Source: Pseudomonas sp. MM223 (GTDB lineage Bacteria > Pseudomonadota > Gammaproteobacteria > Pseudomonadales > Pseudomonadaceae). From it: a stretch of DNA of 64,000 nucleotides. Both the position numbers and the translations under genes were made by a program. Below, piece after piece: positions 1-62,367 of the stretch. Positions within the stretch are counted from its first letter, which is position 1; each line of letters opens with the position of its first letter. Below the pieces are notes generated by a model. It was not told the DNA's origin and made no database searches. It saw only the letters and a program-made list of their open reading frames with translations. The stretch lies in NCBI GenBank assembly GCA_947090765.1, contig OX352322.1, forward strand, positions 825,501-889,500, read 5' to 3'.

Positions 1-1269
1 GCGCATGAACGACATGGCTGCAGGAGCCATACTGCCGCGTGCGTTGGGTCGGTAGCCGTCCTCGATCATGCGCTGGGTGAGAATGCGGAACAGGAGGTAG
101 AACAGGTCGTCGGCGTAGCCGCCCATCAAGGTCCCGGTGAGAAGCACGGTTTTACGCGCCTTCGCGGCCAACACCCCCATGGCCTGGCCCTGGGCCGAAC
201 CGCTGTTCTTGTATTCATGCCCTTCGTCGACAACCAGCAGGTCGAAGAAACCATCGGGTAGGTAGCGCTTGATGAACTCTGTCGGCTGGTATCCGCCTTC
301 GCCGAATCCAAACTCGATGTTGGCCATCGCCCGCTCCATGCGCTTGGCCTGACGGTCGCTGAAGACGAAGTTGCCTTTCGCGTCCATCAAGTTGATGAAC
401 TCTGAGACGTTGTCGACCAGCATCGAGGCCAGGAAGTCCTCGCCGAAGTCGTTCAGCAGCCGTTCCGCCCGGACCGGGCCGATCGTTGGTATCCGGCACA
501 TCGACTTCAGGATTGTCGAGCGTCGGTCCCCACCATCAGCTTTGCCTGGGCGCATAAGCGTCCAGAGGGCAGCGTTGCAGGCACTGCAGTTGCGACGGCG
601 ATCACCGCGCTCGAACTCTTCCACGGTGACCAGGTTGCCTTCCAGGTCCTCGAGGACCTGGCCGCAATCTGGACATGCCGCCAGCCGCTGGCCACCTGCA
701 GTGCGCCGCTTCCAGCAGGCGAGTCGCCAGTGGAAACCCATCCGCATCCTGACGCGGCCGAGGATGAAGAACTCCGGCCGGCCGTCATAGGTTTGCCCCG
801 CCTGGTCACGCAGCTTAAGCAGTTTGACCAACGTGTCCGGGCCGTTGAGCACCCAGACGCGGGCGCCTGGTGTGGTCTCCAGGATCTCGCGCCGCCACTT
901 GTAGACAAGGTGGGGTGGTGAGATGACGAGGGTTCGACGGTAGCCTGCCGCGTGGAGCACGGCAGCGACTGCGATGGCCATCATCGTCTTCCCGGTACCC
1001 ATCTCGGCGTTGATGATCGCAGCTTGCTCGTTGCGATCGAGCAGAAGCGCCGTGATGGCTTGGACAACCTCAGCTTGCGCCACGAATGGCGTGCGCTTGA
1101 GACTTGCCATCACGGCCTGGCGCTGTTCGTTAATGCTGCCGGTATAAACCGGAGGGTTGGAGCGGTTGAGCGACTCCAGGAGCTCGTCGCCGAACTCGTC
1201 GATGAAATCGGTCAGGTTGATGTTCAGTGGTGAGTTGGCCGAGGCGGCTACTTGGGTCAGTGCGTTCAT
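1..1269 (-). CDS. ICE superfamily II helicase, N-terminal part (cut by left edge)
   Basis: 423 codons are open to the window edge and the C-terminal helicase half lies outside. The ATG at 1267-1269 follows AGGAG at a short distance. A Walker A motif AEMGTGKT lies near residue 88. Further on are a zinc-binding insert with CPDCG and CSAC pairs, a DEAH-like VVDEGHEY motif and motif III TGTLMGG. This layout is that of SNF2/DEAD-type ATPases carried by PAPI-1-like ICEs. It is transcribed behind the methyltransferase gene, so the two may act together on DNA. The precise role is unknown. The family call is by motif and the ICE role is inferred from position. Confidence 0.8.
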   Translation of the reverse strand, partial: MNALTQVAASANSPLNINLTDFIDEFGDELLESLNRSNPPVYTGSINEQRQAVMASLKRTPFVAQAEVVQAITALLLDRNEQAAIINAEMGTGKTMMAIAVAAVLHAAGYRRTLVISPPHLVYKWRREILETTPGARVWVLNGPDTLVKLLKLRDQAGQTYDGRPEFFILGRVRMRMGFHWRLACWKRRTAGGQRLAACPDCGQVLEDLEGNLVTVEEFERGDRRRNCSACNAALWTLMRPGKADGGDRRSTILKSMCRIPTIGPVRAERLLNDFGEDFLASMLVDNVSEFINLMDAKGNFVFSDRQAKRMERAMANIEFGFGEGGYQPTEFIKRYLPDGFFDLLVVDEGHEYKNSGSAQGQAMGVLAAKARKTVLLTGTLMGGYADDLFYLLFRILTQRMIEDGYRPNARGSMAPAAMSFMR

Positions 1270-1366
1270 GTGCATCTCCTGCAGGGAAAGCAGGGCATGC
1301 ACAAACCCCGACGGGTATGGGCATACCCTGTGGGTCGGTGTGGGGTTGTCGCCGTTGCGGCGCTGG

Positions 1367-2834: not shown

Positions 2835-3437
2835 TCAGGCAGACGCCTGAATTTCAGTGGTGAGTACGCCCTGGCGAATCAGCTCTCCGAGAGCAGGCTC
2901 GAGTACCTCGAGCTTCATGGCGAGTCGCCAGGCGCAGACATTGCCGATCGCTCCAGGGAGACCGATCAGCATCTGGTGCTGGATGAGGACTTCCATCACG
3001 GGCTCGCGCCAGTGGGGGAGAAGGGGAAGCGGGCAGGTCTCGATCACCAGCGGCCAGAGCCGTTGGTGTGGGGCTTCATTGCGCTCTAGGAGGGCGAAGG
3101 CGAAGTGATTGGCCTGGTCGGGCACCGAGGCGCGTCGATCAAACAGCCAAAGGTGCAACATGCTGCCAAATAGGGTGCCGCGGAATTGCCGTGTGGTGCG
3201 CTTTTCCAGCAGGTCGTGATTAGGAAAGACGGGAATGCTCCGCCCGTCGACGAGAATGTGAAACTGCTCAAGGCCATTCTCTTCCCGGCCAAGTGTGAGC
3301 CTGGCCAGAAACTCCTGCAGTGCGGTGTCACGACCCCAGGCCGACATGAACACCAGGTTGCGCTGTTCGTCGCACACACAGGCGTCGACGTACAGGTCCG
3401 GGCATTCCTCGATCTGGAACAAGGGGGATGGGTGCAT
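2835..3437 (-). CDS. ICE hypothetical protein, 200 aa
   Basis: I do not recognise the family. The chosen ATG (3435-3437) has GGAGG five bases upstream; an ATG four codons earlier lacks this. The protein is acidic to neutral, without signal peptide or membrane segment. It lies 28 bp upstream of the methyltransferase gene in the same transcription direction and is preceded by one of the recurring GC-rich leader hairpins (3456-3494). Codon use is like its neighbours. A role in ICE maintenance is only suggested by context. Confidence 0.7.
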   Translation of the reverse strand: MHPSPLFQIEECPDLYVDACVCDEQRNLVFMSAWGRDTALQEFLARLTLGREENGLEQFHILVDGRSIPVFPNHDLLEKRTTRQFRGTLFGSMLHLWLFDRRASVPDQANHFAFALLERNEAPHQRLWPLVIETCPLPLLPHWREPVMEVLIQHQMLIGLPGAIGNVCAWRLAMKLEVLEPALGELIRQGVLTTEIQASA

Positions 3438-3455
3438 GATGGCCTCCATTGTGGA

Positions 3456-3494
3456 GGCGTCCGTCCCAGAGGGCGGAAACGCCCCCCGGGGTGG
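3456..3494 (-). promoter_or_regulatory. GC-rich leader hairpin element (variant)
   Basis: On the minus strand, blocks CCCC-GGGG and CCC-GGG flank an arm GGCGTTTCC that can pair with a downstream GGACGCC. Sister elements at 6502 and 7371 keep the pairing with different bases. It ends about 18 bases before the start codon at 3437. Confidence 0.45.
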
Positions 3495-3502
3495 TCTGAT
3501 GG

Positions 3503-3757
3503 TTAATTGAAGGTCCTGGTGAGCGGATCGAAAGCCACACTGTCTTGTTGGTGCAGCGGGCCGTGACCCTCGAGGAATATTTGGATCCGGTACTGGTCGC
3601 GGAGACGTATAGCAGCCTCAGCCTGGTCCAGTGTGAGGTCCAACTCTTCGATGAAAAAGTCGACGAGCTCCTCGTCAGTCGACACCTCGTTGTTGGACAG
3701 CTGGTCCTCAATGTTGGCGAGGGTTTGTTTGCTCAAGTGGCTGAACATGGCGTTCAT
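3503..3757 (-). CDS. Small acidic ICE hypothetical protein, 84 aa
   Basis: The protein is strongly acidic in its first half (QLSNNEVSTDEELVDFFIEE) and probably helical. There is no signal peptide and no known domain. The ATG at 3755-3757 has GGAGC nine bases upstream. It sits in the one-gene-per-leader cluster from 1.3 to 9 kb, with a CCC/GGGG hairpin (about 3785-3810) before it. The function is unknown. Confidence 0.65.
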   Translation of the reverse strand: MNAMFSHLSKQTLANIEDQLSNNEVSTDEELVDFFIEELDLTLDQAEAAIRLRDQYRIQIFLEGHGPLHQQDSVAFDPLTRTFN

Positions 3758-3849
3758 GGTGGTGCTCCAGGTAGATAAATGGAGCCCCCGAGGAGGCCCC
3801 TCAGGGTGTGTGGTTCAGGTTGACTGCGGCAGTGGTCTGGCAGGGCGCT

Positions 3850-4455
3850 TTAAGGCGAAGCCCTGGTCCAGGTTTGAGTTTTGAAGTCCATGGTAAAACC
3901 GAGCTGGTCCAGCCGCGTGCACTGGGCGCGCAGCCGCTGCCGGTCTACGCTGGTGTCGAGCCTCACGGTTTCGCTCAATGGCCACACCGTGCCAAATAGC
4001 TCGGCATCGATGTCGTTCGTGCTCGGTGGCGCCGCCGGACTCATCCCGAAGGGCTCATCCGAGGCGAGGGCATCAGTTTGGGGCTGTGGCGTCGGCGTGT
4101 TTGGAATCCGACGTGACGGTATCGGTGTGGGTGGTGGCCCGTCCTCTTCAAGAGGGTCAGGGACGTTGGTTGGCAGATGTTCTTCGTCTTCGCGACTGAG
4201 ACCTGTGACATCCTCCAGGGTCATGCCCTCGAGTTCAGCCCTGATCTCAACAACGAGTCGACCGCCGTGTGAGTAATACGATGGGCGAATCTGCTTGATC
4301 GCGAAGTCACCTCGGTATTTACCTTCCTGGTACTGATCCAGAAGAGCATCCTTGATGGTGAACTCACCGATCGAGGTACTGAGGCGGCCGACGTTGAATA
4401 GCCCGAGTCGGCCGGAGATGGTGCGGATGGCCAACTGGCCGGTGATTGAGATCAT
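3850..4455 (-). CDS. DUF3275 family ICE protein
   Basis: 201 aa. The N-terminal 75 residues match the DUF3275 signature: GQLAIRTISGRLGLFNVGRL, then IGEF, the DQYQEGKY block and GGRLVVEIRAEL. A proline-rich linker follows (about residues 100-125), and a short C-terminal domain ends with a DKxxLRxQCxRLxxLGF-like helix (VDRQRLRAQCTRLDQLGF). The family is known from PAPI-1/ICEclc-type elements and has no established function. The ATG has GGGGAG upstream. It is a good marker that the region belongs to this ICE family. Confidence 0.85.
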   Translation of the reverse strand: MISITGQLAIRTISGRLGLFNVGRLSTSIGEFTIKDALLDQYQEGKYRGDFAIKQIRPSYYSHGGRLVVEIRAELEGMTLEDVTGLSREDEEHLPTNVPDPLEEDGPPPTPIPSRRIPNTPTPQPQTDALASDEPFGMSPAAPPSTNDIDAELFGTVWPLSETVRLDTSVDRQRLRAQCTRLDQLGFTMDFKTQTWTRASP

Positions 4456-4517
4456 GTGCGCTCCCCGTAAAGCATGGGGAACTCCCAGCGGGCGTTCCCC
4501 GCGAGGGTGGAAGGTGG

Positions 4518-4929
4518 TCAGCAGTCGAACAGCGGCAGACCGTCGAGAACGTTGCTGTTGGGGTCGATGACCAGGAACCTCACTTCAGCCTGAGCGGCAA
4601 GAGTGAGCACCCGGATGGTCTCCTCGCTGAAGCCCTCGGCGGCTTGCAGAGCTTGAAGTGTCGACAGTTCGTACCCCCAGTACTGTCCCAGATGTTGGTC
4701 GGTCCAGGGCGTACTGAGAAGTTTGAAGCCGATGGCGTCACTGTCTGGCAGGGTGAAGCACTCGAACTGAAGCTGAGCCTGTATCAGCAGTTTCAACGAG
4801 TACCTGCAGCTCCTCCCAGTCCTCCTCGGGCAAGTGTGCAGAGGCGATCTCGAACGCTTGGCTGCAGCAGGGATGAGGTACAGATTGTTCGCCGGTAGCG
4901 ATGTTGAAGGGGTTGAGTGATTGTGCCAT
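4518..4929 (-). pseudogene. Probable DUF5983-like ICE gene split by a frameshift
   Basis: The first frame runs from the ATG at 4927-4929 (MAQSLNPF..., including HLPEEDWEELQVLVETADTG) to a stop at 4738. The second frame covers 4796-4518 and contains QFECFTLPDSD, STPWTDQHLGQYWGYELS and a C-terminal VRFLVIDPNSNVLDGLPL that resembles DUF5983. The second frame has no ATG near its start, only a TTG without an evident ribosome site, and the frames overlap by 59 bases. A single protein of about 137 aa broken by one indel near 4780 is therefore more likely than two genes. The frameshift is inferred. Confidence 0.5.
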
Positions 4930-4997
4930 GTGGCGTGCTCCTGGTTGAGAGGAAGCCACCCCAGAGGGTGACCCCTCTGGGTGATTAACTGGCTGTG

Positions 4998-5318
4998 TCA
5001 GGCGGGGGCTGCAGTGGGCTGCAGCTGGATCTGGATGTAGGCAGGCTCGTTCTCGGGGGTGACGACTCGCAAAGCGAGGGCAACCCAGTCACGTTGGCGG
5101 CCAGTATGGCGCTTTGTGTACACGCCGAAGGTGAAAGCCTTGGCCAGAGGTTGCTGCTTGAGTTCTTGCCACGCCGTTTGTACGACGGTGGCGAGGCGTT
5201 GGCTCATTTCGGCTACCCGGTCAGGGTTTTCGAGATAGACCGCACGCATCCACGCAGCGTTGTCCAGGACAACCGGAAGGGTGAGGTATGCCTCGGACGA
5301 GGCGGAGGGTATGGACAT
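4998..5318 (-). CDS. ICE hypothetical protein, 106 aa
   Basis: The start at 5316-5318 is chosen because GGAGA lies eight bases upstream. An open frame extends to 5456, but that part overlaps the structured leader and has no coding character. The product begins MSIPSASSEAYLTLPVVLD and has no recognisable domain or membrane segment. It is the first gene behind leader copy A (5393-5506). Confidence 0.65.
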   Translation of the reverse strand: MSIPSASSEAYLTLPVVLDNAAWMRAVYLENPDRVAEMSQRLATVVQTAWQELKQQPLAKAFTFGVYTKRHTGRQRDWVALALRVVTPENEPAYIQIQLQPTAAPA

Positions 5319-5392
5319 CAGAGGTCTCCAGAATGAGCGAGGCCTCAGTCCGCGAGGGATGAGATCCCCGCGGGTAGGTAAAGTAGAAGGCA

Positions 5393-5506
5393 CTCCATCA
5401 CTGAGTGATGTGATCGCGCTGCCGAGTGCTAGGCGATCTTGGGTGGGTTGGCGCAATGCGCTGGAGCCTTAAACCCTGGCTCCGGGAGGCACTGTCAACG
5501 ACAGTG
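5393..5506 (-). ncRNA. Structured leader RNA candidate, copy A
   Basis: Read on the minus strand, successive hairpins are P0 CTGTC/GACAG, Pa GGAGCC/GGCTCC, Pb GCGC/GCGC, P1 GATCGC/GCGATC and P2 CATCAC/GTGATG. Copies B (7439-7567) and C (8934-9061) keep the same order of hairpins with different but complementary bases. It precedes the gene at 4998-5318. The P1 loop shares an AGCNYTCNGGNAG-like core with the other copies. Confidence 0.55.
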
Positions 5507-5579
5507 AACCAATACGGAATTCGTTGTCCGGGCTGTAGGCAGAGGCCTCACAGTTGCCCGGTGACTGCTTTGAAAGTCC

Positions 5580-5602
5580 CCCCGAAGGGGTACCCTTCGG
5601 GG
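5580..5602 (-). terminator. Intergenic hairpin behind the 5628-5978 gene
   Basis: A perfect 10-bp stem CCCCGAAGGG/CCCTTCGGGG with a 3-base loop lies 26 bases after the stop codon. There is no clear T tract, so it may be another member of the GC-rich leader family rather than a true terminator. Confidence 0.4.
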
Positions 5603-5627
5603 TGGAGGACTGGTGATACAGGGTGGG

Positions 5628-5978
5628 TCAGATCATGTCTTCGTAGATGTCTTCCCAGAGGTTGGAACTAGCTTCCTGTACAGCGCGGTAGTGCTCATCA
5701 TCGAGCTGGAAGCCTTGCCGTTCTGCCTCACGTTTGAACAACTGGTCGTGAGGAAAGGTGAGAGCTGCATATTGATCGCGCAGCGTAGTGAGCAGGCTCA
5801 TCTCGTACAGTTCGAAGTATTGGCCACAGCGATCCAGGGCGAGTTTCGAGCTTGCTTTGATCGAGTCCGCGAACCGCCGCTCAAGCACGTCTACACGGAT
5901 GAAAGCCCCGGCAACTCGTTTCTCGAAGGGGTTGGTGATGAACATGACGCCATTGAAGACTTGGGTGGCTTGGGACAT
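5628..5978 (-). CDS. ICE hypothetical protein, 116 aa
   Basis: The start at MSQATQVF (ATG 5976-5978) has GGAGC nine bases upstream; a frame reaching 6002 does not. The product has an N-terminal beta-rich part (VFNGVMFITNPFEKRVAGAF) and an acidic helical tail ending WEDIYEDMI. The family is not recognised. A leader hairpin (about 5995-6035) precedes it. It belongs to the cluster of small accessory genes between the pilus operon and the methyltransferase. Confidence 0.65.
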   Translation of the reverse strand: MSQATQVFNGVMFITNPFEKRVAGAFIRVDVLERRFADSIKASSKLALDRCGQYFELYEMSLLTTLRDQYAALTFPHDQLFKREAERQGFQLDDEHYRAVQEASSNLWEDIYEDMI

Positions 5979-6054
5979 GGTGATGCTCCGATGAGGGGTC
6001 ACCAGCCCGCTCGGGTGATGTACCCGAAAGGTTCAAGTGCTGGAGTTGGTGGTC

Positions 6055-6480
6055 TTACAGGTCGTTCGGGTCCATGAGGCCCTGGGTGACCCTGAGAATG
6101 CGTGTGTTGACCCGAAGATCCTTGGGAGTGACCTTGTCTCGGGCGTAGGCCATGTCAGCTAGGTGGTGGGTGCGGCCGCAGAGCTGCGAATAGACATCTA
6201 CAAGGCGATATCTGTCATTCGACAGTTCGTCATCCGTTACCGACCAGGACGAGTCGAGGTGAGGAAGCAACGAGATGAAATCGGACCAGGACATGTACGT
6301 GTAGTCTTGAATACGCGCCCCGTGGTCATCGATCTCGCAGCCCAGAGAGGCGAACGAAGTCGAGTAGTACAACCTAGGTTTTTGATCCTGATCCCGTAGC
6401 TCCAGAATATCTGAGTGCGCGGTGCCGAAGTCAGGGAAGCACTGCTGAATATCTCCAGCAACAGTGATGTAGTAAGGCAT
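6055..6480 (-). CDS. ICE hypothetical protein, 141 aa
   Basis: The ATG is at 6478-6480, behind a leader hairpin (6502-6537). The longer open frame that joins it to the DUF3577 gene is an artefact of a frameshift upstream and crosses the small gene at 6558-6716 in another frame. The product (MPYYITVAGDIQQCFPDFG... to DPNDL) is soluble and has no known domain. The family is not recognised. Confidence 0.65.
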   Translation of the reverse strand: MPYYITVAGDIQQCFPDFGTAHSDILELRDQDQKPRLYYSTSFASLGCEIDDHGARIQDYTYMSWSDFISLLPHLDSSWSVTDDELSNDRYRLVDVYSQLCGRTHHLADMAYARDKVTPKDLRVNTRILRVTQGLMDPNDL

Positions 6481-6501
6481 GGCGAAGTCCTCGGTGAGGA
6501 A

Positions 6502-6537
6502 AACGCCTCCCGCAGGGGATTGGCGTCCCCTGCAGGG
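6502..6537 (-). promoter_or_regulatory. GC-rich leader hairpin element (variant)
   Basis: On the minus strand CCCTGCAGGGG and CCCCTGCGGG are complementary. The intervening ACGCC can instead pair with GGCGT just downstream. The second pairing corresponds to AATACTT/AAGTGTT in the copy at 7371, which is compensatory variation. Confidence 0.5.
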
Positions 6538-6557
6538 TAGGAAGCAAGTTGGTGTGA

Positions 6558-6716
6558 TCAGTGGGTCAGCATGGTCGCAACTGAGCTGGCTTTGCGGTTG
6601 AGGGCATCGATAACGAAACCACTCAGCCCGATAAAAGCGCACGCACCGAAAACAATGTCGCCGAGGATGACGGCGGCGACCAGGATAAGAAGGTTCAACG
6701 CGAACAGAATTTTCAT
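6558..6716 (-). CDS. Small membrane protein, 52 aa
   Basis: MKILFALNLLILVAAVILGD is followed by a second hydrophobic stretch (IVFGACAFIGLSGFVI) and a short polar tail, so two membrane segments are likely. The ATG is at 6714-6716 and the stop at 6558-6560. It lies between DUF3577 and the 6055-6480 gene, in the same direction. The reading frame is supported by consistent hydrophobicity and by not overlapping other genes once the DUF3577 frameshift is recognised. Confidence 0.6.
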   Translation of the reverse strand: MKILFALNLLILVAAVILGDIVFGACAFIGLSGFVIDALNRKASSVATMLTH

Positions 6717-6769
6717 GACTGCCTCCTTGGCAGAAAGTGAAGGCGCTGAAATCAGCGCCTTGATAGGGG

Positions 6770-7341
6770 TTATGCAGCCTGGTTGGGCTCCTGAGGAAGA
6801 TCATTACCGAGGTCAGGTTCGGCTGTTCACCGAACTGGTCGGCGACTGGCTGTCCTTGATTCACGGGTTGCTCAGGTTGATCCTGATTCAACGCTTGATC
6901 CACACCAGGTTGTCCCTGATTGTCAGCGGGCGGGGTGGCGTTTTTCGGCTTCGCTTCGTACACCAGCTTGCCGTCAACTTTGATCCAGCCGATGAAGAGC
7001 AGGCGGCCTTTGAGGCTTGCGCCGGCCTGACCTTTCTTCTCGCCTTTATCATAGGTGAAAGCATCAGCCCAGATGTCGCCGATTCGGAAGGAGACGAGCA
7101 CCTTCTTTTTGGCTTCAACGGCCTGTTGGCAGCGTTTAACCAGCGATTCTGCCTCGGCACCGACAACGTTGCAGTCGATGTAGGAGTACTCGGCTTTATC
7201 AGTTGCACCGTGCAATGCTGCAACGGTGACACAGGTGAAGGGTTTGCCCTTGCGAGGACTGACTTCACGGATACGGTTGAGGTAGCCGATGCCAGTGGTG
7301 TGCAGGTCGAAGAATTTGGCTTCGTTGGATTGGTTGGTCAT
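6770..7341 (-). pseudogene. DUF3577 (STY4534-like) family ICE protein, frameshifted near its end
   Basis: The N-terminal 140 residues match DUF3577: FFDLHTTGIGYLNRIREV, GKPFTCVTVAALHG and YIDCNVVGAEAE, resembling single-strand-binding-like ICE proteins. A repetitive Q/N/P-rich tail follows (NQGQP, NQDQP). Near 6820 the frame changes: shifting by one base restores the ending DLGNDLPQEPNQAA and a stop at 6770-6772. As written, the frame instead runs out of register through the next small gene. One missing C in GAACCTG would explain it. It may be functional in the real genome if this is a sequence error. Confidence 0.7.
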
Positions 7342-7370
7342 GGTGATTCTCCAGTTTCAATAGTGAAAGC

Positions 7371-7413
7371 GGAGAAACACTTCGCCCATGGGGGAAAGTA
7401 TTCCCCGCGTGGG
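7371..7413 (-). promoter_or_regulatory. GC-rich leader element with AAGTGTTTCTCC motif, copy 1
   Basis: On the minus strand it reads CCC-N4-GGGG, AATACTT, CCCCC-N2-GGG, then AAGTGTTTCTCC. AATACTT can pair with AAGTGTT, enclosing the second hairpin. Copies at 8417 and 8880 share the final AGTGTTTCTC. It ends 29 bases before the DUF3577 start codon. Confidence 0.55.
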
Positions 7414-7438
7414 TTGGGATGTAGCAAGTTGGGTAGGC

Positions 7439-7567
7439 TTCCATCAATCGAGAGATTGATCAATCGCGCTTCCGGAAGCTTGGCGATTTTGGGGCGATCA
7501 ACACCGCAATGGGTGTAGCAGTCTTTCAGATCATGACTGCTCGGGCTTGGGTTACTGACGACGTCAG
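7439..7567 (-). ncRNA. Structured leader RNA candidate, copy B
   Basis: Minus-strand hairpins in order: P0 CTGAC/GTCAG, Pa AGCAGTC/GACTGCT, Pb ACACC/GGTGT, P1 AATCGC/GCGATT and P2 GATCAATC/GATTGAT. All five stems differ in sequence from copies A or C but remain paired. It lies between a sigma70-like promoter (7583-7611) and the DUF3577 gene. Confidence 0.6.
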
Positions 7568-7582
7568 CGGCTCACGGTCACA

Positions 7583-7611
7583 AGGATGGAAACGGAGAAA
7601 CACATTGTCAA
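7583..7611 (-). promoter_or_regulatory. Sigma70-like promoter of the DUF3577 unit
   Basis: A perfect -35 box TTGACA (7606-7611) is followed after 17 bases by CATCCT (7583-7588), a weak -10. The predicted start falls just before hairpin P0 of copy B, so the structured element would begin the transcript. It lies directly behind the terminator at 7615-7645. Confidence 0.45.
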
Positions 7612-7614
7612 GCC

Positions 7615-7645
7615 CTGAAAGAAAAAACCCTCCAGATGGAGGGTT
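7615..7645 (-). terminator. Rho-independent terminator
   Basis: On the minus strand AACCCTCC-ATCT-GGAGGGTT is followed by TTTTCTTTC. It closes the transcription unit of the small genes at 7665-8853. Confidence 0.8.
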
Positions 7646-7664
7646 AAGAGGGGGAAATCGACGT

Positions 7665-7790
7665 TCAATGTGCCCGAAGAATCTTCTGGCACCGCCGTTT
7701 GATGTTAGGCCAATCAGCCCACACTGCCATGCCGATGCAGATGAAGAGCAGGGCGGTGAACATGAGGATACCGAATGTAGTGTGGCTCAT
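7665..7790 (-). CDS. Small membrane protein, 41 aa
   Basis: MSHTTFGILMFTALLFICIG is one hydrophobic segment; a basic tail follows (NIKRRCQKILRAH), which suggests an inner-membrane protein with a cytoplasmic C-terminus. The ATG starts two bases after the stop codon of the gene at 7792-7968, so translation is probably coupled. The terminator follows 20 bases after its stop. Confidence 0.55.
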   Translation of the reverse strand: MSHTTFGILMFTALLFICIGMAVWADWPNIKRRCQKILRAH

Positions 7791-7791
7791 A

Positions 7792-7968
7792 TCATTCCTC
7801 CGGGGTGAGGTAGATGCCTGTGATCCAGATTACAACACCCACCACGAGGGCGAAAGCGGTAAGCAGTCGGCTAGTGCTGAGGAAGATACCCACAAGGGCG
7901 GCGGCGACGGCAGTCGTACCGATCTTGCGAAGGTCGTCTGCTACAGCTGCGCGTTTTTTTGATGCCAT
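7792..7968 (-). CDS. Small membrane protein, 58 aa
   Basis: MASKKRAAVADDLRKIGTTA is a basic N-terminus followed by two hydrophobic segments (VAAALVGIFL and LTAFALVVGVVIWITGIYL). The ATG is at 7966-7968, with AAAGGA just upstream. It is adjacent to the next small membrane gene with no real gap. Function unknown. Confidence 0.6.
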   Translation of the reverse strand: MASKKRAAVADDLRKIGTTAVAAALVGIFLSTSRLLTAFALVVGVVIWITGIYLTPEE

Positions 7969-8039
7969 GGCGTTCCTTTGATCGCCAGGCCCTCACCTTG
8001 CCAGGTGGGGTGCCTGGCACTGGGTGAGGTGGGAGAAAG

Positions 8040-8390
8040 TTAGATCGCAACTGGAGTTATGAGATCGTCCAGCGGGCCCATACGCAGCTCTGGAGCTTTG
8101 GCTTTGCTCGGCTTGCGCTGGCGGGTGCGGCGCTTGGTCGGTGGTACCGCTTTGGTGTTGGCATCGAACCACTGGTTCAGGTCAACGCCGCGGCGTGCGA
8201 GGGTCGGAATGCGGCAGAGCTCATCCCAGTCGTTTCGGGTGGGCGTTATGCTCGTGAGATGAGCAACAGGCTGGGCCTGGGTTGGGATAGCTGGAGTTGT
8301 CCGTTTCATGGAGCGCACGAACTCACGGGTGAGGGTGCCGAGCGCGTAGCCAAAACGGAAGCTGGTCGATGGTACGGATACTGCGGTCAT
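8040..8390 (-). CDS. Basic ICE hypothetical protein, 116 aa
   Basis: The start at MTAVSVPSTSF (ATG 8388-8390) has AGGAGA eight bases upstream. The C-terminal third is very basic (PTKRRTRQRKPSKAKAP), suggesting nucleic-acid binding; this is inference. A leader element with the AGTGTTTCTCC motif (8417-8457) precedes it. Family not recognised. Confidence 0.6.
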   Translation of the reverse strand: MTAVSVPSTSFRFGYALGTLTREFVRSMKRTTPAIPTQAQPVAHLTSITPTRNDWDELCRIPTLARRGVDLNQWFDANTKAVPPTKRRTRQRKPSKAKAPELRMGPLDDLITPVAI

Positions 8391-8416
8391 GATGGTTCTC
8401 CTGCGGTTTGGAATGC

Positions 8417-8457
8417 GGAGAAACACTGACCCCAGGGGGAGTGGTTTCCCCGTTGGG
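8417..8457 (-). promoter_or_regulatory. GC-rich leader element with AGTGTTTCTCC motif, copy 2
   Basis: The same plan as copy 1: CCC-N2-CGGGG, AAACCACT, CCCCC-N-GGGG, AGTGTTTCTCC. AAACCACT pairs with AGTGTTT with one bulge. Confidence 0.5.
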
Positions 8458-8496
8458 TTTACTGCGTGTGGAACACTGGGTTAATCGAGGGCGCCT

Positions 8497-8853
8497 TCAG
8501 TCGACCTCAAAGCAGCCACAAGGACAGGTCAGCCAAGTGAGACCGTGGGCGCAGATACCGTTGTCACGGTCTGCGGCTTCAATCTCGAGCAGCTCAGCCT
8601 CAGAAACATAGTCGTATGCATGCCTGGCAAAAGCGAACGCATACTGGACCTCAGCATTGAGGTTTTCTTCGTTGCCGAAGGTTTCTCGCATCCTTTTGCA
8701 AAAGTGCGAGCGAACTACTGCCTCATAAGTTGGATAGCGTTGAACCGCCTCGCCGTACAGCTTGCCGACGGAGTCTTCAATAGCTTCCGATGAGGCTGTG
8801 CCTTGGTAAACAGGCGCGCCTTCTTCAAGATCAAGTTCAGAATGTTGGGTCAT
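8497..8853 (-). CDS. ICE hypothetical protein with Cys-rich C-terminus, 118 aa
   Basis: The ATG at 8851-8853 follows AGGAAA; the longer open frame to 9042 overlaps the leader RNA. The acidic N-terminus (SELDLEEGAPVYQG) leads to a helical middle and a C-terminal GICAHGLTWLTCPCGCFEVD, with four cysteines and one histidine that could bind zinc. It is the first gene behind leader copy C. Confidence 0.65.
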   Translation of the reverse strand: MTQHSELDLEEGAPVYQGTASSEAIEDSVGKLYGEAVQRYPTYEAVVRSHFCKRMRETFGNEENLNAEVQYAFAFARHAYDYVSEAELLEIEAADRDNGICAHGLTWLTCPCGCFEVD

Positions 8854-8879
8854 GAGTGTTTCCTGCGTAGAGAATTGCA

Positions 8880-8920
8880 GAGAAACACTTTGCCCTGCAG
8901 GGAAGTGATTCCCCACTGGG
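8880..8920 (-). promoter_or_regulatory. GC-rich leader element with AAGTGTTTCTC motif, copy 3
   Basis: CCC-N3-GGGG, AATCACTT, CCC-N3-GGG, AAAGTGTTTCTC on the minus strand. AATCACTT/AAGTGTT pairing is retained. It ends 26 bases before the start codon at 8853. Confidence 0.55.
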
Positions 8921-8933
8921 TTTGCGGAAGGAG

Positions 8934-9061
8934 CTTCTATCGACGGATGTCGATCGGTCGTGCTACCAGAAGCTGAACGACCTTGGGGAGGATCACACGA
9001 TTGACGTGCTGCAGCATTACGGATCCGAGCTGCATGGGGCATGTTGCTGACGACGTCAGCA
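8934..9061 (-). ncRNA. Structured leader RNA candidate, copy C
   Basis: Minus-strand hairpins: P0 TGCTGACG/CGTCAGCA (8 bp), Pa TGCAGC/GCTGCA, Pb CACG/CGTG, P1 GGTCGT/ACGACC and P2 ATCGAC/GTCGAT. P0 and the flanking TCACGG are nearly identical to copy B, while P1 and P2 show compensatory changes. A strong sigma70-like promoter lies immediately upstream. Confidence 0.6.
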
Positions 9062-9073
9062 GATCACGGCTTA

Positions 9074-9102
9074 ATAATCGGAGTGGGGAGGGGTTGTGTC
9101 AA
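9074..9102 (-). promoter_or_regulatory. Sigma70-like promoter upstream of leader copy C
   Basis: TTGACA (9097-9102) is separated by exactly 17 bases from GATTAT (9074-9079). The predicted start is a few bases before hairpin P0. Confidence 0.6.
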
Positions 9103-48796: not shown

Positions 48797-48867
48797 GGGC
48801 AGGGCAATAAACTAGCGGAAACAGGGGTTTGCGTTGCGGGTGTGAGCAGTGGTACGTTGCGCTACAC

Positions 48868-48943
48868 GCCGGTGTAGCTCAGTCGGTAGAGCAGCGCACT
48901 CGTAACGCGAAGGTCGCAGGTTCGATTCCTGTCTCCGGCACCA
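48868..48943 (+). tRNA. tRNA-Thr (anticodon CGT)
   Basis: 76 nt with acceptor GCCGGTG, D-loop AGCTCAGTCGGTAGAG, anticodon loop ACTCGTAAC, T-loop GGTTCGATTCC, and encoded CCA. Its 3' end is the insertion target of the following island. Confidence 0.96.
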
Positions 48944-48989
48944 GTTCAGGTTCCAGCGAAGGCAACCAAAATCTCTGGAACCCGCGTAA

Positions 48990-49014
48990 AACCTGCCTTC
49001 TGGCGGGTTTTTTC
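48990..49014 (+). terminator. Terminator behind tRNA-Thr
   Basis: AACCTGCC-TTCT-GGCGGGTT with T6 run; one G-U pair. Confidence 0.85.
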
Positions 49015-49104
49015 GTTATGGCGTTCCGTCGGATTCCGACAGCTGCCAGCCGATTTAGGGGTAACGTTTGGGATAAAGTCGATTCGATAATGGGGTTTAC
49101 CCTT

Positions 49105-50427
49105 ATGTCTCGTACTACTGATCCCCTGACTGACACCGCTTGCCGCTCGGCCAAACCAACTGACCGCCCCTACAAGCTTTTCGACGGTGACGGGCTTTAC
49201 CTCCTCGTTTACCCCAATGGCCGCAAAGGCTGGCGCTTCCGGTATGTGAAACCGGATGGGCGAGAGGGGCTGACCTCGTTTGGCAACTATCCCGTCATCG
49301 GTCTCGCAGATGCTCGGCAGAAGCGTCTGGAGACTAAGCGGATGCTGGCTGAGGGCATCGATCCGATTGCGTCCAAGCAGCAGGCCAAGGCCGAGGCGGT
49401 TGTCAGAGGGCACACCTTTGAGCGCGTTGCCTTAGACTGGCATAAGGAAATGTCCGTGAAATGGGCGCCTGGCCATTCGAGGACCGTGTTGAGTCGCTTG
49501 AAGACTCACGTATTCCCGCTGCTAGGCGCACGCGCCATCGTTAATCTGGATACTTTCGACCTCATGCAGCCACTGGATGCGATCAAGAAGCGCGGCACGA
49601 TCGATGTGGCTTTGAGGGTACAAAACTACCTTCAGAGCATCATGCGTGAGGCGAAGCGGCTACGGCTGATCACGGTGAACCCAGCATATGACCTTGAAGG
49701 CTTCATCAGCGCGCCACGGGTTACGCACCGGCCTGCACTCCCGCTGTCACGTCTGCCTGAGTTGATGGACCGCATCGAGAACTACAAAGGGCGCACGCTC
49801 ACTCGGCTGACAGTCATGCTGTCGCTGCATGTGTTTGTTCGGTCCAGCGAATTGCGCTTCGCACGCTGGAGTGAGTTCGATCTGAAGCGCGGCATATGGG
49901 AGATACCTGACACGCGGCCCGCTTTGGATGGCGTCCCGTATTCGACCAGAGGCACGAAGATTGCGGGCGACATCCATCTGGTCCCTCTGTCACCGCAAGC
50001 GGTGGCGTTGCTCAAACAGATTCATGCGATCACGGGGTACTTCGATTTGGTGTTCACCAGTGACGCTCGCTCGTGGAAGCCAATGTCCGAGAACACGGTC
50101 AACAGCGCTTTGCGGAACATGGGCTATGACACCAAGACCGAAATCTGCGGGCATGGCTTCCGGTCCATGGCGTGCAGTGCCTTGGTTGAATCCGGGCTGT
50201 GGTCAGAGACGGCTATCGAGCGGCAGATGAGCCACAGGGAGCGCAACAACGTTCGGGCGGCGTATATCCACAAGGCCGAGTTCCTGGAGGAACGGCGATT
50301 GATCATGAGTTGGTGGAGTCGTTACCTCGAAGCGAACCGGCAGGAGCATATCTCGCCGCATGAGTTCGCGAATCAGACCGGGGTAAACGTTTCTAGCCTA
50401 AGAGCAAGGCGTGGCTCAGTCGAGTGA
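49105..50427 (+). CDS. P4-type tyrosine integrase
   Basis: 440 aa from MSRTTDPLTDTACRSAKPTD (ATG 49105). DUF4102 arm-binding N-domain (YKLFDGDGLYLLVYPNGRKG). Catalytic residues: Arg in SSELRFARW, HGFR, MSHRERN and Tyr in RAAYIHK. The gene lies directly behind tRNA-Thr, the target of the element. Intact. The longer open frame from 48,829 crosses the tRNA. Confidence 0.92.
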   Translation: MSRTTDPLTDTACRSAKPTDRPYKLFDGDGLYLLVYPNGRKGWRFRYVKPDGREGLTSFGNYPVIGLADARQKRLETKRMLAEGIDPIASKQQAKAEAVVRGHTFERVALDWHKEMSVKWAPGHSRTVLSRLKTHVFPLLGARAIVNLDTFDLMQPLDAIKKRGTIDVALRVQNYLQSIMREAKRLRLITVNPAYDLEGFISAPRVTHRPALPLSRLPELMDRIENYKGRTLTRLTVMLSLHVFVRSSELRFARWSEFDLKRGIWEIPDTRPALDGVPYSTRGTKIAGDIHLVPLSPQAVALLKQIHAITGYFDLVFTSDARSWKPMSENTVNSALRNMGYDTKTEICGHGFRSMACSALVESGLWSETAIERQMSHRERNNVRAAYIHKAEFLEERRLIMSWWSRYLEANRQEHISPHEFANQTGVNVSSLRARRGSVE

Positions 50428-50512: not shown

Positions 50513-50867
50513 TCACCTAAAAAATCAAAAGCACGAAATCGGCCACTGGAAACCACGGGATTCCGTACACGCCCAATGCTATTTTCAACTGCAAAATCCA
50601 GCGGGCGAGTCGCTTGACCCTCTCGGATTGCGGGCGTAGAAAAGACAGTGCAAAGGCTGTCGTTGACAGCACCCCAGGTGACCCGAGCCTTCAAGGTCAC
50701 GCCGCTCTCGCGGTGGCTCTACCCAAGGGCGATTCGCATCCGGCAGCTCGCCCGGTCACTACCCATGTGATGGATGCTCTTACACATATGGCGTTCGTGC
50801 GCCGATACACCCTACCTCGCTGCCCTGCAGCAACCTATCCGCTTGGCCGACTATTGCGCCAACCTGT

Positions 50868-50897
50868 GCCCGTCTCTTTCTTTGGAAAGAGACGGGC
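50868..50897. terminator. 13-bp hairpin
   Basis: GCCCGTCTCTTTC-TTTG-GAAAGAGACGGGC. A short loop and strong stem; the following bases ACTTCTATC are only weakly T-rich. Confidence 0.45.
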
Positions 50898-51321
50898 ACT
50901 TCTATCACTGCTGCAGCACTGATCACACAAGGCTTTGCGGCAATCCCCCGCGTGACAATCGGCGTGACAAACGCCGATGTCACCAGCAACAGCCATGTAG
51001 ATGATGGTGCCGCAGACCAGGGAATGGACTGCACCTGACTGACAGTCAGGCATGCCCCGGTCATCGCATTGCTGCGTTTACCCGGCTCAGGATCTTCAGG
51101 CGCTGGTCTCGTCAGCCAGTGCTGCCTCCACCCGCCCACCGGTAACGGTGCTCAGGAGGCCAGATCATCAGATGCCCTTGCTCCCGGATGTAAGGAGCCG
51201 CCAGTCCCGCGTAGTGGACATTCCCCACAGGTCGCAGGGGCCTTGATCCCTGATAACACTCAGCATTCTTGGCGGGATGACGTGGGGCGAGGATCGGAGA
51301 ACGAACGATGAGGTGACCGAC

Positions 51322-52302
51322 ATGGCATTGGTGGGTAGACGCGATGGCCGCAATTTCGGCTACGGCAGGCAATTGAGCTACGCAGGGCCGCAGGCGCTGA
51401 AAGATATGTTCGGGCGTGGCCACTACGGCACGGTCAAGGCGCACTGTGATCGGTGGCAGGCATTCGTGAAGTGGTGCCGTTCCGAACAGGGGCCAGGTAT
51501 CAATGATGCGCGGCAGATTGATCGGAAGGTATTGGCGGACTATGCGGTGTATCTGCGCGATGCGGTTGAGTGCGGTAGCCTCGCCATCAGCACCGCACAA
51601 AACCGCCTATCCAGCGTTAACAGGACCATGGCGGCGCTTCGCGGTGATCAGTACGTGAAGTTGCCCAGTCCGAGCAAGGCATTGGGTATGCAGCGCACTG
51701 GGGTTCGCCACTCGGTGCCGCAGGGCCAAGACCGCGAACGGGTTAAGCAGATCGTCGATGCGCTTTGCCGAAATCATCAGCAACGGGCCGCCGCAATCGT
51801 TCTGTTGGCACTGGCCACTGGCATGCGCTTGCGTGAGGCCATCTTGGCGGATCTGCCACGACTAAGCCGTGAGGCTAACGAGCTAGGCAGGATCAATATT
51901 CAGGATGGTACCAAAGGCGGTCGCGCCGGTGCCTCGGCGCCGCGTTGGATTGCGGTGAACGACGATGTTCGCGAGGCGCTTGGGTTTTCACGGCAGGTAT
52001 CGCCTGTGGGTAGCCACAACCTGGTTGCTCCGCACGAAAGCTACCGGAATCTTCTGCAAGAAATTATCCGCCCTGCGCGGGACATCCTGCATGCACACAA
52101 CCTCAAAGGCTTCCATGAGCTAAGAGCGGCGTACGCATGTGAGCGCTATGAGCAAATCACCCAACACCGAGCGCCTATCAATGGCGGCCACTGTTGCCAG
52201 TTAGATAGGAGCCTTGATCGTGAAGCTCGCAGGCAGATCAGCTACGAGCTTGGGCACGGTCGAATCGACGTGGTCGCGGCTTACATTGGACCGCGCGCAT
52301 GA
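51322..52302 (+). CDS. Integrase_1-like tyrosine recombinase
   Basis: 326 aa from MALVGRRDGRNFGYGRQLSY, with GAGGTG upstream; an ATG at 51277 is weaker. N-terminal SAM-like DNA-binding part (YGTVKAHCDRWQAFVKWCRS). Catalytic features: Arg in ATGMRLREAI, HELRAAYACERY, GHGRIDVVAAYIG with Tyr. This is not a P4-type integrase and resembles the Integrase_1 family of proteobacterial mobile DNA. It may act on a different site from int1. Confidence 0.78.
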   Translation: MALVGRRDGRNFGYGRQLSYAGPQALKDMFGRGHYGTVKAHCDRWQAFVKWCRSEQGPGINDARQIDRKVLADYAVYLRDAVECGSLAISTAQNRLSSVNRTMAALRGDQYVKLPSPSKALGMQRTGVRHSVPQGQDRERVKQIVDALCRNHQQRAAAIVLLALATGMRLREAILADLPRLSREANELGRINIQDGTKGGRAGASAPRWIAVNDDVREALGFSRQVSPVGSHNLVAPHESYRNLLQEIIRPARDILHAHNLKGFHELRAAYACERYEQITQHRAPINGGHCCQLDRSLDREARRQISYELGHGRIDVVAAYIGPRA

Positions 52303-54218: not shown

Positions 54219-54715
54219 CGACCGTCTCGGTTTATTCCTATACCCAATCGGTCACCTACGTGACCGATAACATTCTCAAGAGCCTTAAAGATATCCTCCG
54301 GGTCAGCGGCCTTGATCCGGCGGGGTTAGTGGGAGACTGGGAGGTCTTACATCGGGGAATCAAGGCGTGGATCGACTCCAAACATCTCGAGCTGGTGATT
54401 CTCGAGATCCACCACCCGAAGACCGACGCTCTGATTATGCGGTGGGATATCGCTGTGTCGTATACCTGGGACAGCTCTGCCGGTAGCTTCTGGACCGATA
54501 CTGAACAACTGAAGTATGCGATAAAAAAGGCTGGCGTGATGCCATCTGAGGCCTCTTATCGTGTGGTAGTCACCACTGCTAACGGTCGACCGGAGGTCTT
54601 AGGCTGGAGCAGCTGTAACCTGAGATCAACCGAGGGTTTTGTACGTCAGAGCCTGGGTACCACTATTGAACATAACGGTCTGGGCGCGAATACCACCTAC
54701 TGGAGAAGTACCTGA
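54215..54715 (+). CDS. cap7: CBASS HORMA protein (bacHORMA_1, Cap7)
   Basis: 166 aa. [20 protein letters not shown] at the start, [40 protein letters not shown] and the safety-belt end [15 protein letters not shown]...YWR are strong bacHORMA_1 features. In known systems HORMA binds a closure peptide when infection occurs and activates the CD-NTase. It overlaps the CD-NTase start (TGATG). Confidence 0.85.
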
Positions 54716-55614
54716 TGCTGACAATCGATGAGGCGTTTCGCAAGTTCAAAAGTCGGTTGGAGCTCAACGACAAGGAGCAGAAGAACGCAAGCGAGCGCCA
54801 TACTGAAATTCGTGAATTCGTCCGTTCGAAGTTCTCCATCGACAACGATTTTCTGACTGGCTCTTACGCCCGCTACACCAAGACCAAACCACTAAAAGAT
54901 ATCGATATCTTCTTTGTGATGAAGGAGTCTGAAAAACATTATCGGAGCAAGTCTGCTGGCGTGGTTCTCGACGATTATGAAAAGGCGTTGATCGACAAAT
55001 ACGGGAAGGCTGCAGTCCGGCGCCAAAGTCGTTCGATCAATGTCGACTTCGGGGTCGAGGTCAAAGAGGACGACAAAACCGATTATAAAATTCTCAGTAT
55101 CGACGTGGTGCCAGCGTTCGCTTGCGGTGAGGACTACGAAATTCCAGACGATGACACTGGAAAGTGGATCAAGACCAACCCGAAAAAGCATGCGGAGAAA
55201 GCGACGAACGCCCATCAGGCCTATGGCAATGAGTGGAAAGGTCTGGTGCGGATGGTCAAATATTGGAATAACAACCCAAAGCATGGCGAGAAACCGGTCA
55301 AACCTTCGTTCATGATCGAGGTGATGGCGCTGCAGTGTTTGTATGGAGGGTGGGGGGGACAGTTCGACCGCGAGCTGCAGAGCTTCTTCGCCACCTTGGC
55401 TGATCGGATCGGTGAAGTCTGGCCGGATCCGGCCGAGCTGGGACCGCCGATCAGCAACTCAATGGACCCGCAACGGGTGGCCAGTGCGCAGCGAGCGCTG
55501 CGTCAAGCAGCCGAAGAGGCAGGACAAGCAATCCATCTGGTGCGACAAGGCAAGAATGGCGAAGCCCTGAAGGCTTGGCGCGCGTTGCTCGGTCCTATGT
55601 TCCCGCTGAGTTGA
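54715..55614 (+). CDS. CBASS CD-NTase (cGAS/DncV-like nucleotidyltransferase)
   Basis: 299 aa. Nucleotidyltransferase motif [20 protein letters not shown] with Gly49-Ser50 and Asp62, Asp64; third acid probably Asp130 in LSIDVVPAF. The C-terminal helical half follows. It would make a cyclic oligonucleotide on infection. With HORMA/TRIP13 neighbours a clade C or D enzyme is expected; the product cannot be read from sequence alone. Confidence 0.88.
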
Positions 55615-55620
55615 ATTGCC

Positions 55621-62191: not shown

Positions 62192-62367
62192 TGGGGCCTT
62201 CCACCGGGCGTGGAGACAGATATAGACTGAATGCCATCACTGTTCGGATAGCCAGTATTCGGGCAGGCATTGTGTTTTGGCCAGCCTAGCCCGACGGGGC
62301 GAAAATCGGACACCCATCCGCCCGGCTGGCCAGCTTTCTTTATGAGGCGCTGTGGGAGGCGATAGTC

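Follow-up and report, generated by a model that had tools for sequence, protein, structure and literature searches.

The radC RNA motif is found in 5′ leaders, often those of DNA-related genes of mobile elements. The put RNA of phage HK022 is a structured RNA at the start of mobile-element transcripts that acts in cis as an antiterminator. Translational attenuators of the ermC type are built of four strands, whose default pairing of 1:2 together with 3:4 hides the Shine-Dalgarno sequence and whose alternative pairing 2:3 is driven by a leader peptide, and in RNA immunity of the P4/C4 type a long leader lies ahead of primase-like replication genes in satellites. The present analysis concerns a stretch of 64,000 nucleotides (nt) of Pseudomonas sp. 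MM223 (GCA_947090765.1, contig OX352322.1, positions 825,501 to 889,500), hereafter the window, in which three hairpin clusters on the minus strand are copies of radC RNA within an integrative and conjugative element (ICE), and in which a second structure, the twin-hairpin leader (THL), lies between radC RNA and the genes that it heads as well as before most other genes of the same cluster.

We give an even chance to the proposal that ICEs of the STY4534 type carry an undescribed RNA regulon, in which most genes of the replication/leading cluster would have a bistable THL switch of their own, its first arm co-evolved to imitate the Shine-Dalgarno arm, and in which radC RNA would cap transcripts in two groups of elements, the clc/pKLC102-like subset and a second, satellite-like family of islands. 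Of the two structures the THL is the more widespread, and it would represent the earlier layer. That RNA might read out a coordinated ICE regulon had been put forward in a first-pass annotation of this DNA; the idea stays plausible, with the correction that the element common to most cluster genes is the THL, since radC RNA heads only 3 of about 11 THL-type cluster genes in the window and also occurs apart from these ICEs (of 26 genomes with a copy in the second kind of island, 17 gave no STY4534 match).

radC RNA: identity, fold and leader types

Comparison of the whole window with all Rfam families identified the three hairpin clusters as radC RNA (RF01754, type Cis-reg) at 67–83 bits against a gathering score of 40, with E-values of 2.4e-10 to 6.6e-14, and this identity is as good as certain. 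The first-pass annotation had described five hairpins in each of the three copies and had rightly named the radC motif as one to compare them with; all fifteen of its stems are present on the minus strand within the ranges it gave, and each copy leads into an open reading frame (ORF) as it had said. Beyond that annotation stand a fourth copy on the plus strand in another island, two pseudoknots, and the THL between each of copies 1–3 and its gene. A search of the whole 6.7-Mb host genome gave four matches, all within the window:

5390–5520, minus strand: radC RNA copy 1 (RF01754, 67.2 bits), leading into the ORF at 5001–5318 (106 aa)
7437–7586, minus strand: radC RNA copy 2 (RF01754, 80.9 bits), leading into the STY4534/DUF3577 ICE replication gene from 7341
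8933–9078, minus strand: radC RNA copy 3 (RF01754, 82.8 bits), leading into the ORF from 8853 (118 aa)
50643–50777, plus strand: radC RNA copy 4, type B (RF01754, 75.2 bits), in a separate island

Copies 1–3 sit in an ICE of the pKLC102/PFGI-1 type, which holds DUF6094, DUF3275, the STY4534/DUF3577 "ICE replication protein", PilO and secretin pilus genes, a topoisomerase and a DnaB helicase; pKLC102 has the identical gene order and three radC RNAs in the stretch fetched. The gene behind copy 2 matches NF040584 with 187.8 bits. Its ORF (6058–7341, minus strand, 428 aa) continues in frame into the following gene with no stop in between, sharing its end with the 141-aa ORF from 6480, and a close relative in another genome (G045) ends at 190 aa. 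Copy 4 is flanked by a P4-like integrase (48829–50427) and an Integrase_1 recombinase (51277–52302).

The radC RNA consists of a 5′ hairpin, P0, and two tandem H-type pseudoknots with a hairpin inserted in each, the one composed of Pa, Pb and PKa and the other of P1, P2 and PKb. In PKa the loop of Pa is paired with bases 3′ of Pb, and in PKb the segment between the arms of P1 is paired with the final bases of the Rfam match. The Rfam consensus line for RF01754 is without P1 and without both pseudoknots. In an alignment of 62 of the 89 matches made by MAFFT from sequence only, 91.2% of the cells of this 44-pair structure are paired and 38 of the 44 pairs show two-sided change; the covariation score is 0.437 against 0.186 for shuffled alignments (none of 500 reaches it), and sliding the partners leaves at most 0.105. 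Taken alone, the pseudoknots score 0.433 against 0.205. Ninety-one non-redundant sequences from named STY4534 loci were also aligned with a model containing no pseudoknots, and the top 22 of all column pairs include three of PKa and three of PKb; this set is only largely independent, a few loci (e.g. L112, L122, L142) coming from genomes that also feed the model. We therefore hold the two tandem pseudoknots to be very probable. According to PMC7657543, CaCoFold finds additional supported pairs for radC, so that part of the pseudoknot result may already be in the supplement of that paper.

On the transcribed strand of the sequence-only alignment, G-U cells outnumber A-C cells by 142 to 58. In the pseudoknots, which are absent from the covariance model, the counts are 12 against 0 for PKb and 23 against 12 for PKa, the latter not significant alone. 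An excess of G-U over A-C marks the sense strand as the one that folds, which points to the transcribed strand acting as RNA and bears out the earlier preference for a conserved RNA over a DNA site. That preference had also looked to further homologues with covariation, and these exist, radC RNA being present in 30 of the 95 genomes searched, its own included. Only five unpaired columns are conserved at 90% or more.

The 89 matches in 31 genomes fall into 49 copies of type A and 40 of type B (two of the latter assigned by hand), with no downstream platform in common. Behind type A copies an ORF was picked in 48 of 49 cases, lying 28–202 nt from the RNA in 45, those of 49–52 aa and those at 304–307 nt being doubtful picks; the downstream proteins form clusters of 13 STY4534-like members, 6 RadC-like members (one scanned), 6 and 5 members of two unknown families, and smaller groups. 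The 40 type B copies among the 89 stand at the head of islands of a second kind. An integrase match precedes the RNA on the same strand in 34 of these 40, and in 31 of them the first sizeable ORF, encoding YfjI (DUF3987) or an Integrase_1 recombinase, begins 624–697 nt from the RNA start. With STY4534-like and RadC-like genes behind type A and YfjI or Integrase_1 behind type B, the copies agree with the usual description of radC leaders.

Between RNA and gene, type B copies share a block of about 500 nt, conserved at 0.80–0.97 against 0.41–0.71 in its surroundings and with no consistently coding frame. In the window this block is

50778–51276, plus strand: conserved leader block of type B, with no frame coding throughout

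The block and its relatives appear to be non-coding, hold several conserved helices and are more conserved than the flanking recombinase genes; no match to it was found in the ICE of the window or in the fetched loci outside type B. Over much of the leader's length C exceeds G. In the reference copy (G032) a Shine-Dalgarno AGGAGG with its ATG lies near RNA position +533, and a GCCTCC/GGAGGT pairing ahead of the type B ORF is kept in 97% of cells, with no double changes. Two other accounts of the type B leader were rejected. A stand-alone small RNA had been suspected from a strong hairpin 92–99 nt behind the RNA in most copies; the hairpin has no T run and conservation runs on to about +650. 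A coding start inside the radC RNA itself (the ATG in GATGGATGC) fails because the frames shift in many copies and none is coding throughout, and two translations from this candidate start matched no NCBIfam or PHROGs family.

Two database records touch on this leader. In a fecal "Bacteriophage sp." record without annotation (MT835634.1), 15427–15539 matches the beginning of the type B query at 77% identity. A plasmid record of P. putida (NZ_CP043577.1, 1193–1351) has a type B radC leader before YfjI and, elsewhere than this leader, a C4 antisense RNA (RF01695) with its target site, hinting at a P4-like satellite.

The position of radC RNA in its transcript was predicted by a simple sigma70 matrix scan, a start being credited to the RNA if it fell between −8 and +14 of the Rfam match. 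By this criterion the best sigma70-like start coincides with the 5′ end of the RNA in 36 of the 40 copies of type B, against an expectation of 4.2, and in 17 of the 49 of type A, against an expectation of 5.1. In copies 2 and 3, as in most type B copies, the predicted start is close to the foot of P0. It had been noted earlier that two copies begin behind TTGACA with 17-base spacing, which holds for copies 2 and 3. At copy 1 the scan finds no promoter-like site at the 5′ end, and a TTGACA falls inside P0. The predicted sites in the window are:

9074–9102, minus strand: promoter-like TTGACA-N17-GATTAT of copy 3, its −10 overlapping the first bases of the Rfam match and its predicted start at the foot of P0
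7583–7611, minus strand: promoter-like TTGACA-N17-CATCCT of copy 2
50614–50642, plus strand: promoter-like TTGACC-N17-TAGAAA of copy 4, with comparable sites ahead of other copies of type B
7621–7645, minus strand: intrinsic-terminator-like hairpin bearing a T run, immediately 5′ of the promoter of copy 2

The terminator-like hairpin would insulate copy 2 from the transcript of copy 3. A site of this kind precedes the RNA by 25–160 nt in 17 of the 49 copies of type A and 7 of the 40 of type B, compared with 6 of 89 control windows placed still further upstream (Fisher p 6e-5 for type A versus controls), so that many copies seem to open separate transcripts. From these predictions it is strongly suggested that radC RNA sits at the 5′ end of its transcript. 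In leaders of the clc type another motif, roughly AAnGCGGG..TGCCGATT, starts 56–57 nt upstream of radC RNA in 16 of the 27 examined; the motif is also met on the gene strand of ICE sites that have no radC RNA, and promoter class and RNA are thus separable. Several such sites, with AAnGCGGG..TTCGGATT/TGCCGATT and no radC RNA, lie in one genome (G051, loci L101–L104; e.g. 5916646, 5950483 and 5936832), and their motif is possibly the shared motif of ICEclc transfer-competence promoters.

Association with STY4534 was assessed on relatives in named genomes, of which the best 80 of 482 were kept; as 402 loci lie outside this set, the taxonomic limit of radC RNA is only rough. In 78 of these best 80 of 482 loci (all except L129 and L140) a radC RNA ends 75–440 nt upstream of the STY4534 match on the same strand, among them loci of Caballeronia, Paraburkholderia, Bordetella hinzii, Gluconacetobacter, Alcanivorax, Billgrantia and Aliidiomarina. 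In a separate sample of 26 STY4534 loci from other Gammaproteobacteria, with about 1.5 kb of upstream sequence in most and 124 bases in one (L209), none had a radC RNA at E<=1, and the 20 of these scanned with Rfam gave no family at gathering score. A universal coupling of radC RNA with STY4534 is thereby rejected, and the association is a property of a large subgroup and not of all STY4534 ICEs. Conversely, an ICE-encoded partner seems not to be required, given the 17 type B genomes without an STY4534 match. Two oddities were met among these loci: a short contig titled Streptomyces (NZ_JAHHIU010000306.1) carries an STY4534 gene with a radC leader as in Pseudomonas loci, probably by contamination or mislabelling, and in PLSDB an OXA-type beta-lactamase prediction lies under the match at the STY4534 cluster in 6 of 8 records (plasmid matches H4–H9), which may be an artefact of the PLSDB gene table.

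The twin-hairpin leader

The THL lies between radC RNA and the type A genes and before most other cluster genes. Its strands 1 and 2 form hairpin H1 (pattern CCC..GGGGAA..TTCCCC..GGG) and its strands 3 and 4 hairpin H2, the 3′ arm of which, strand 4, contains the Shine-Dalgarno sequence up to the ATG. A covariance model, R2, was built from 32 leaders (alignment A6), in which 80.1% of cells are paired and covariation is 0.201 against 0.146 for shuffled alignments, with none of 500 reaching it. The helix with the paired Shine-Dalgarno is kept by compensatory change outside the core, both in 29 leaders with pairs taken from each one's own fold and in A6. Ten minus-strand sites were found by R2 in the window at E<=0.02, four of them in the model; in nine the end coincides exactly with an ATG opening an ORF, and the remaining site lies just off an ATG. 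Together with the copy 1 gene they are:

8851–8924, minus strand: THL of the copy 3 gene (50.2 bits; in the model)
8388–8461, minus strand: THL of the gene at 8040–8390, with no radC RNA ahead (63.7 bits; in the model)
7339–7416, minus strand: THL of the copy 2 gene, STY4534 (76.1 bits, E 2.6e-16; the near-identical leader of L111 is in the model)
6478–6541, minus strand: THL of the gene from 6480 (25.7 bits, E 5e-4)
5976–6035, minus strand: THL of the gene from 5978 (33.3 bits; in the model)
5319–5392, minus strand: candidate twin hairpin of the copy 1 gene, by folding only (no R2 match at E<=0.5)
4929–4988, minus strand: THL adjoining the ATG with top coordinate 4929 (63 aa), its end not exactly on the ATG (24.1 bits; in the model)
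4453–4510, minus strand: THL of the DUF3275 gene, start 4455 (22.4 bits, E 0.003)
3755–3817, minus strand: THL of the gene from 3757 (19.1 bits, E 0.019)
3435–3494, minus strand: THL ending on the ATG at 3437 (200 aa; 21.9 bits, E 0.004)
1267–1338, minus strand: THL of the gene from 1269, which runs off the window (28.2 bits, E 1e-4)

In the stretch of pKLC102, which has no sequence in the model, R2 gave 12 sites at E<=0.11, of which 11 end on the ATG of an annotated coding sequence; a THL stands at 11 of the 12 plus-strand coding sequences listed for the cluster, the exception being DUF6094, which has no R2 match in the pKLC102 stretch or in the window. Among 21 named loci 101 of 103 R2 matches lie on the gene strand, and among 29 other loci matches occur in two, both of them ICE loci. 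In the 6.7-Mb host genome all 5 matches at E<=0.1 fall in this cluster. R2 matches are present in 14 of 57 genomes, with STY4534 in 10 of these and not in G064; three genomes (G028, G033, G034) have a single weak match each. By eye, the THL is seen in most STY4534 leaders without radC RNA. No twin-hairpin leader was found in Rfam 15 or in the openly licensed literature searched. Judging from these sequence patterns, the THL probably serves translational control.

Strand 3 can also be bound by strand 1 of H1, which is similar to strand 4. In A6 the resulting 1:3 helix is paired in 91.0% of cells and covaries at 0.407 against 0.256 shuffled (none of 500), with at most 0.245 when slid, and its G-U cells number 41 against 5 A-C. 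When the Shine-Dalgarno sequence was forced open, the best fold used 1:3 in 24 of 32 leaders and retained 1:2 in 8; among 780 chimeras, each combining the H1 of one leader with the H2 of another unlike it, 1:3 was used in 21% (Fisher p about 3e-10). Two less tidy tests agree, one on 35 leaders (own −10.05 against permuted −8.13 kcal/mol) and one on 67 leaders (p 0.0035). Such folding calculations tip the balance somewhat towards a strand swap to 1:3.

Elsewhere in the window, a pair resembling the cyclic-oligonucleotide-based antiphage signalling system (CBASS), made up of a SMODS nucleotidyltransferase and a SAVED effector, lies behind the type B leader of copy 4 (54715–57174, plus strand) alongside an AAA ATPase at 52843. 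An int-alpA RNA (RF02996, 54.1 bits) at 62279–62347 (plus strand) adjoins a further tyrosine integrase (60893–62191), and for this reason a further mobile island seems to start there.

Proposed mechanism and rival explanations

We propose that the THL would act as a gene-by-gene bistable translation switch, off with 1:2 and 3:4 paired and on with 1:3 paired and the Shine-Dalgarno sequence freed, thereby keeping each cluster gene translationally silent until something favours 1:3. The radC RNA would be a 5′ domain acting in cis on its own transcript, whatever lies behind it, since it heads both genes with a THL in ICEs and the long leader of type B; the few conserved unpaired bases, the recurrence of the RNA in one element and the lack of pairing with its own leader argue in the same direction. 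A poorly translated message is exposed to Rho and RNase E, and protection or licensing of such messages, namely ICE operons with masked starts and the long type B leader, is for this reason the first guess for what radC RNA might do, the other option within this explanation being that it receives a host signal which sets operon expression. To the explanation in two layers as a whole we assign a probability of about 0.6. The protective role by itself is tentative and falls short of even odds; it is placed ahead of the reception of a host signal and then of put-like antitermination.

Several observations weigh against this explanation. Covariation counts are inflated by related sequences, and in 32 of the 49 type A copies, copy 1 included, P0 has no convincing start of the sigma70 kind. 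A direct pairing between radC RNA and the leader behind it was tried and rejected, no specific complementarity being found (p 0.80). R2 misses the copy 1 gene and includes the ATG columns, so that ending on an ATG is partly built in; the partners of A6 slid by −1 still score 0.162, the highest slid value; and the host-genome search, which covered 150 of the 1002 candidates of a first look, gave back only 5 of the 10 sites in the window. Occlusion of the Shine-Dalgarno sequence differs only modestly from that of shuffled leaders (0.15 against 0.23, 38 leaders). Opening the THL costs about 7 kcal/mol even for the best open form, which means that the off form needs some driver to leave it, and the Shine-Dalgarno sequence stays closed when strand 2 is made unavailable in silico (mean unpaired probability 0.08 to 0.10). 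The likeness of H1 and H2 might also come from one protein binding both.

This last thought leads to the reading of the twin hairpins as two similar sites for one RNA-binding repressor, with no strand swap. It would account for the likeness of the arms (GGGGAA/GGAGAA; TTCCCC/TTTCTCC), as expected of duplicated operators, yet 1:3 is kept in 91.0% of cells against 82.4 and 78.8% for the H1 helices and 80.3% for H2 in the same alignment, a comparison that is not decisive because alignment quality differs between strands, and the 1:3 pairing breaks down in chimeras; we consider two repressor sites rather unlikely. That the radC hairpins are chance or generic palindromes, which are common in GC-rich intergenic DNA, has practically nothing left to it in view of Rfam E-values down to 6.6e-14, the 78 of the best 80 loci and the covariation. 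Nor is it credible, beyond a very slight chance, that the element acts as folded single-stranded DNA, for example as a Frpo-like single-strand promoter of the leading region. The genes are of the leading-region kind (RadC, STY4534, methyltransferase-like) and hairpins of single-stranded DNA covary too, but in an element of the Frpo type the folding strand would be the complementary (template) one, giving the reverse of the G-U bias found for radC RNA, both pseudoknots and the 1:3 helix, and promoter-like sites of the double-stranded kind stand ahead of many copies.

For radC RNA itself, the nearest competitor to protection is a sensor, either a metabolite riboswitch or a host-protein operator, which would receive a host signal and set operon expression with the THL as its expression platform. 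A compact double-pseudoknot fold of 130–150 nt in 5′ leaders, recurring before functionally linked genes, invites this reading, as do the masked Shine-Dalgarno sequence downstream in type A and the GCCTCC/GGAGGT pairing before the type B ORF. However, riboswitches have many near-invariant unpaired nucleotides, and the five columns seen here are few for a metabolite aptamer; THLs also exist without radC RNA, the spacing from RNA to start codon ranges from about 30 to 530 nt, and complementarity between radC RNA and leader is not above chance. We regard a sensor as unlikely. A processive antiterminator acting on RNA polymerase in cis, by analogy with put, would suit the predicted transcript-start position under unrelated promoters, the several copies per element and the long untranslated type B leader with C in excess of G. 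Its standing is lowered by the terminator-like sites between radC units, which in some cases part one unit from the following one, immediately ahead of the latter's promoter (17 of the 49 copies of type A; 7621–7645), and processive action would make second and third copies redundant, all of which renders it a distinctly improbable account. The explanation preferred here thus remains a cis-acting radC RNA domain combined with THL switches.

Comparison with known systems

The THL resembles attenuators of the ermC type in its four strands, its default of 1:2 and 3:4 with a hidden Shine-Dalgarno sequence and an alternative pairing that would free it; it differs in that the alternative is 1:3 and not 2:3, and in that one THL stands at each gene over most of the cluster. 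With put, radC RNA shares the place of a structured RNA at mobile-element transcript starts, as predicted here, and a proposed action in cis, whereas radC units are partly divided by terminator-like sites. The type B leaders, long and placed before YfjI (DUF3987), recall the P4/C4 arrangement, although in the P. putida plasmid element the C4 RNA lies elsewhere. The STAXI motif, in the accessible part of Weinberg et al. 2010, shares repeated pseudoknots near DNA-processing and antirestriction genes; radC RNA has instead two non-identical pseudoknots with inserted hairpins, and the STAXI model gave no match in the window at gathering score.

The following is drawn from the accessible portions of the papers named. 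For ICEclc a shared 27-bp promoter motif is described and differences in expression are taken to suggest "additional post-transcriptional regulatory mechanisms" (Sulser et al., PMC9286271), and 5′ rapid amplification of cDNA ends (RACE) gave no specific product for six upstream regions (Gaillard et al., PMC2892462); both observations are compatible with structured leaders without being proof of them. Stem-loops in the int 5′ untranslated region of ICEKp1 lower expression and are predicted in that of ICEclc (PMC13023037), which concerns, as far as seen, another gene and another structure than the THL. Transcriptional control is described for PAPI-1 (PMC8565334), and transcription start site maps and Rfam leaders are reported for P. 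aeruginosa (Wurtzel et al., PMC3460626). If true, the THL would be a post-transcriptional layer for a group of ICEs whose control is described, in the portions of PMC9286271 and PMC8565334 concerned, at the level of promoters.

The family of radC RNA has been catalogued since 2010, and no assigned function for it was found in the openly licensed literature searched; its tie to transcript starts of STY4534-type ICEs (78 of the best 80 of 482 loci) and to satellite-like islands gives it a testable setting. Overall, the copies analyzed here agree with the radC RNA motif (RF01754; Weinberg et al. 2010, PMC2864571, in its accessible part) in covariance-model family, in stems and in their place in 5′ leaders of Proteobacteria, and radC RNA alone was already known. 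What is added to RF01754 as catalogued are the pseudoknots PKa and PKb, the predicted position at transcript starts, the two leader architectures with the type B islands, the association with STY4534 together with its limits, and the THL downstream.

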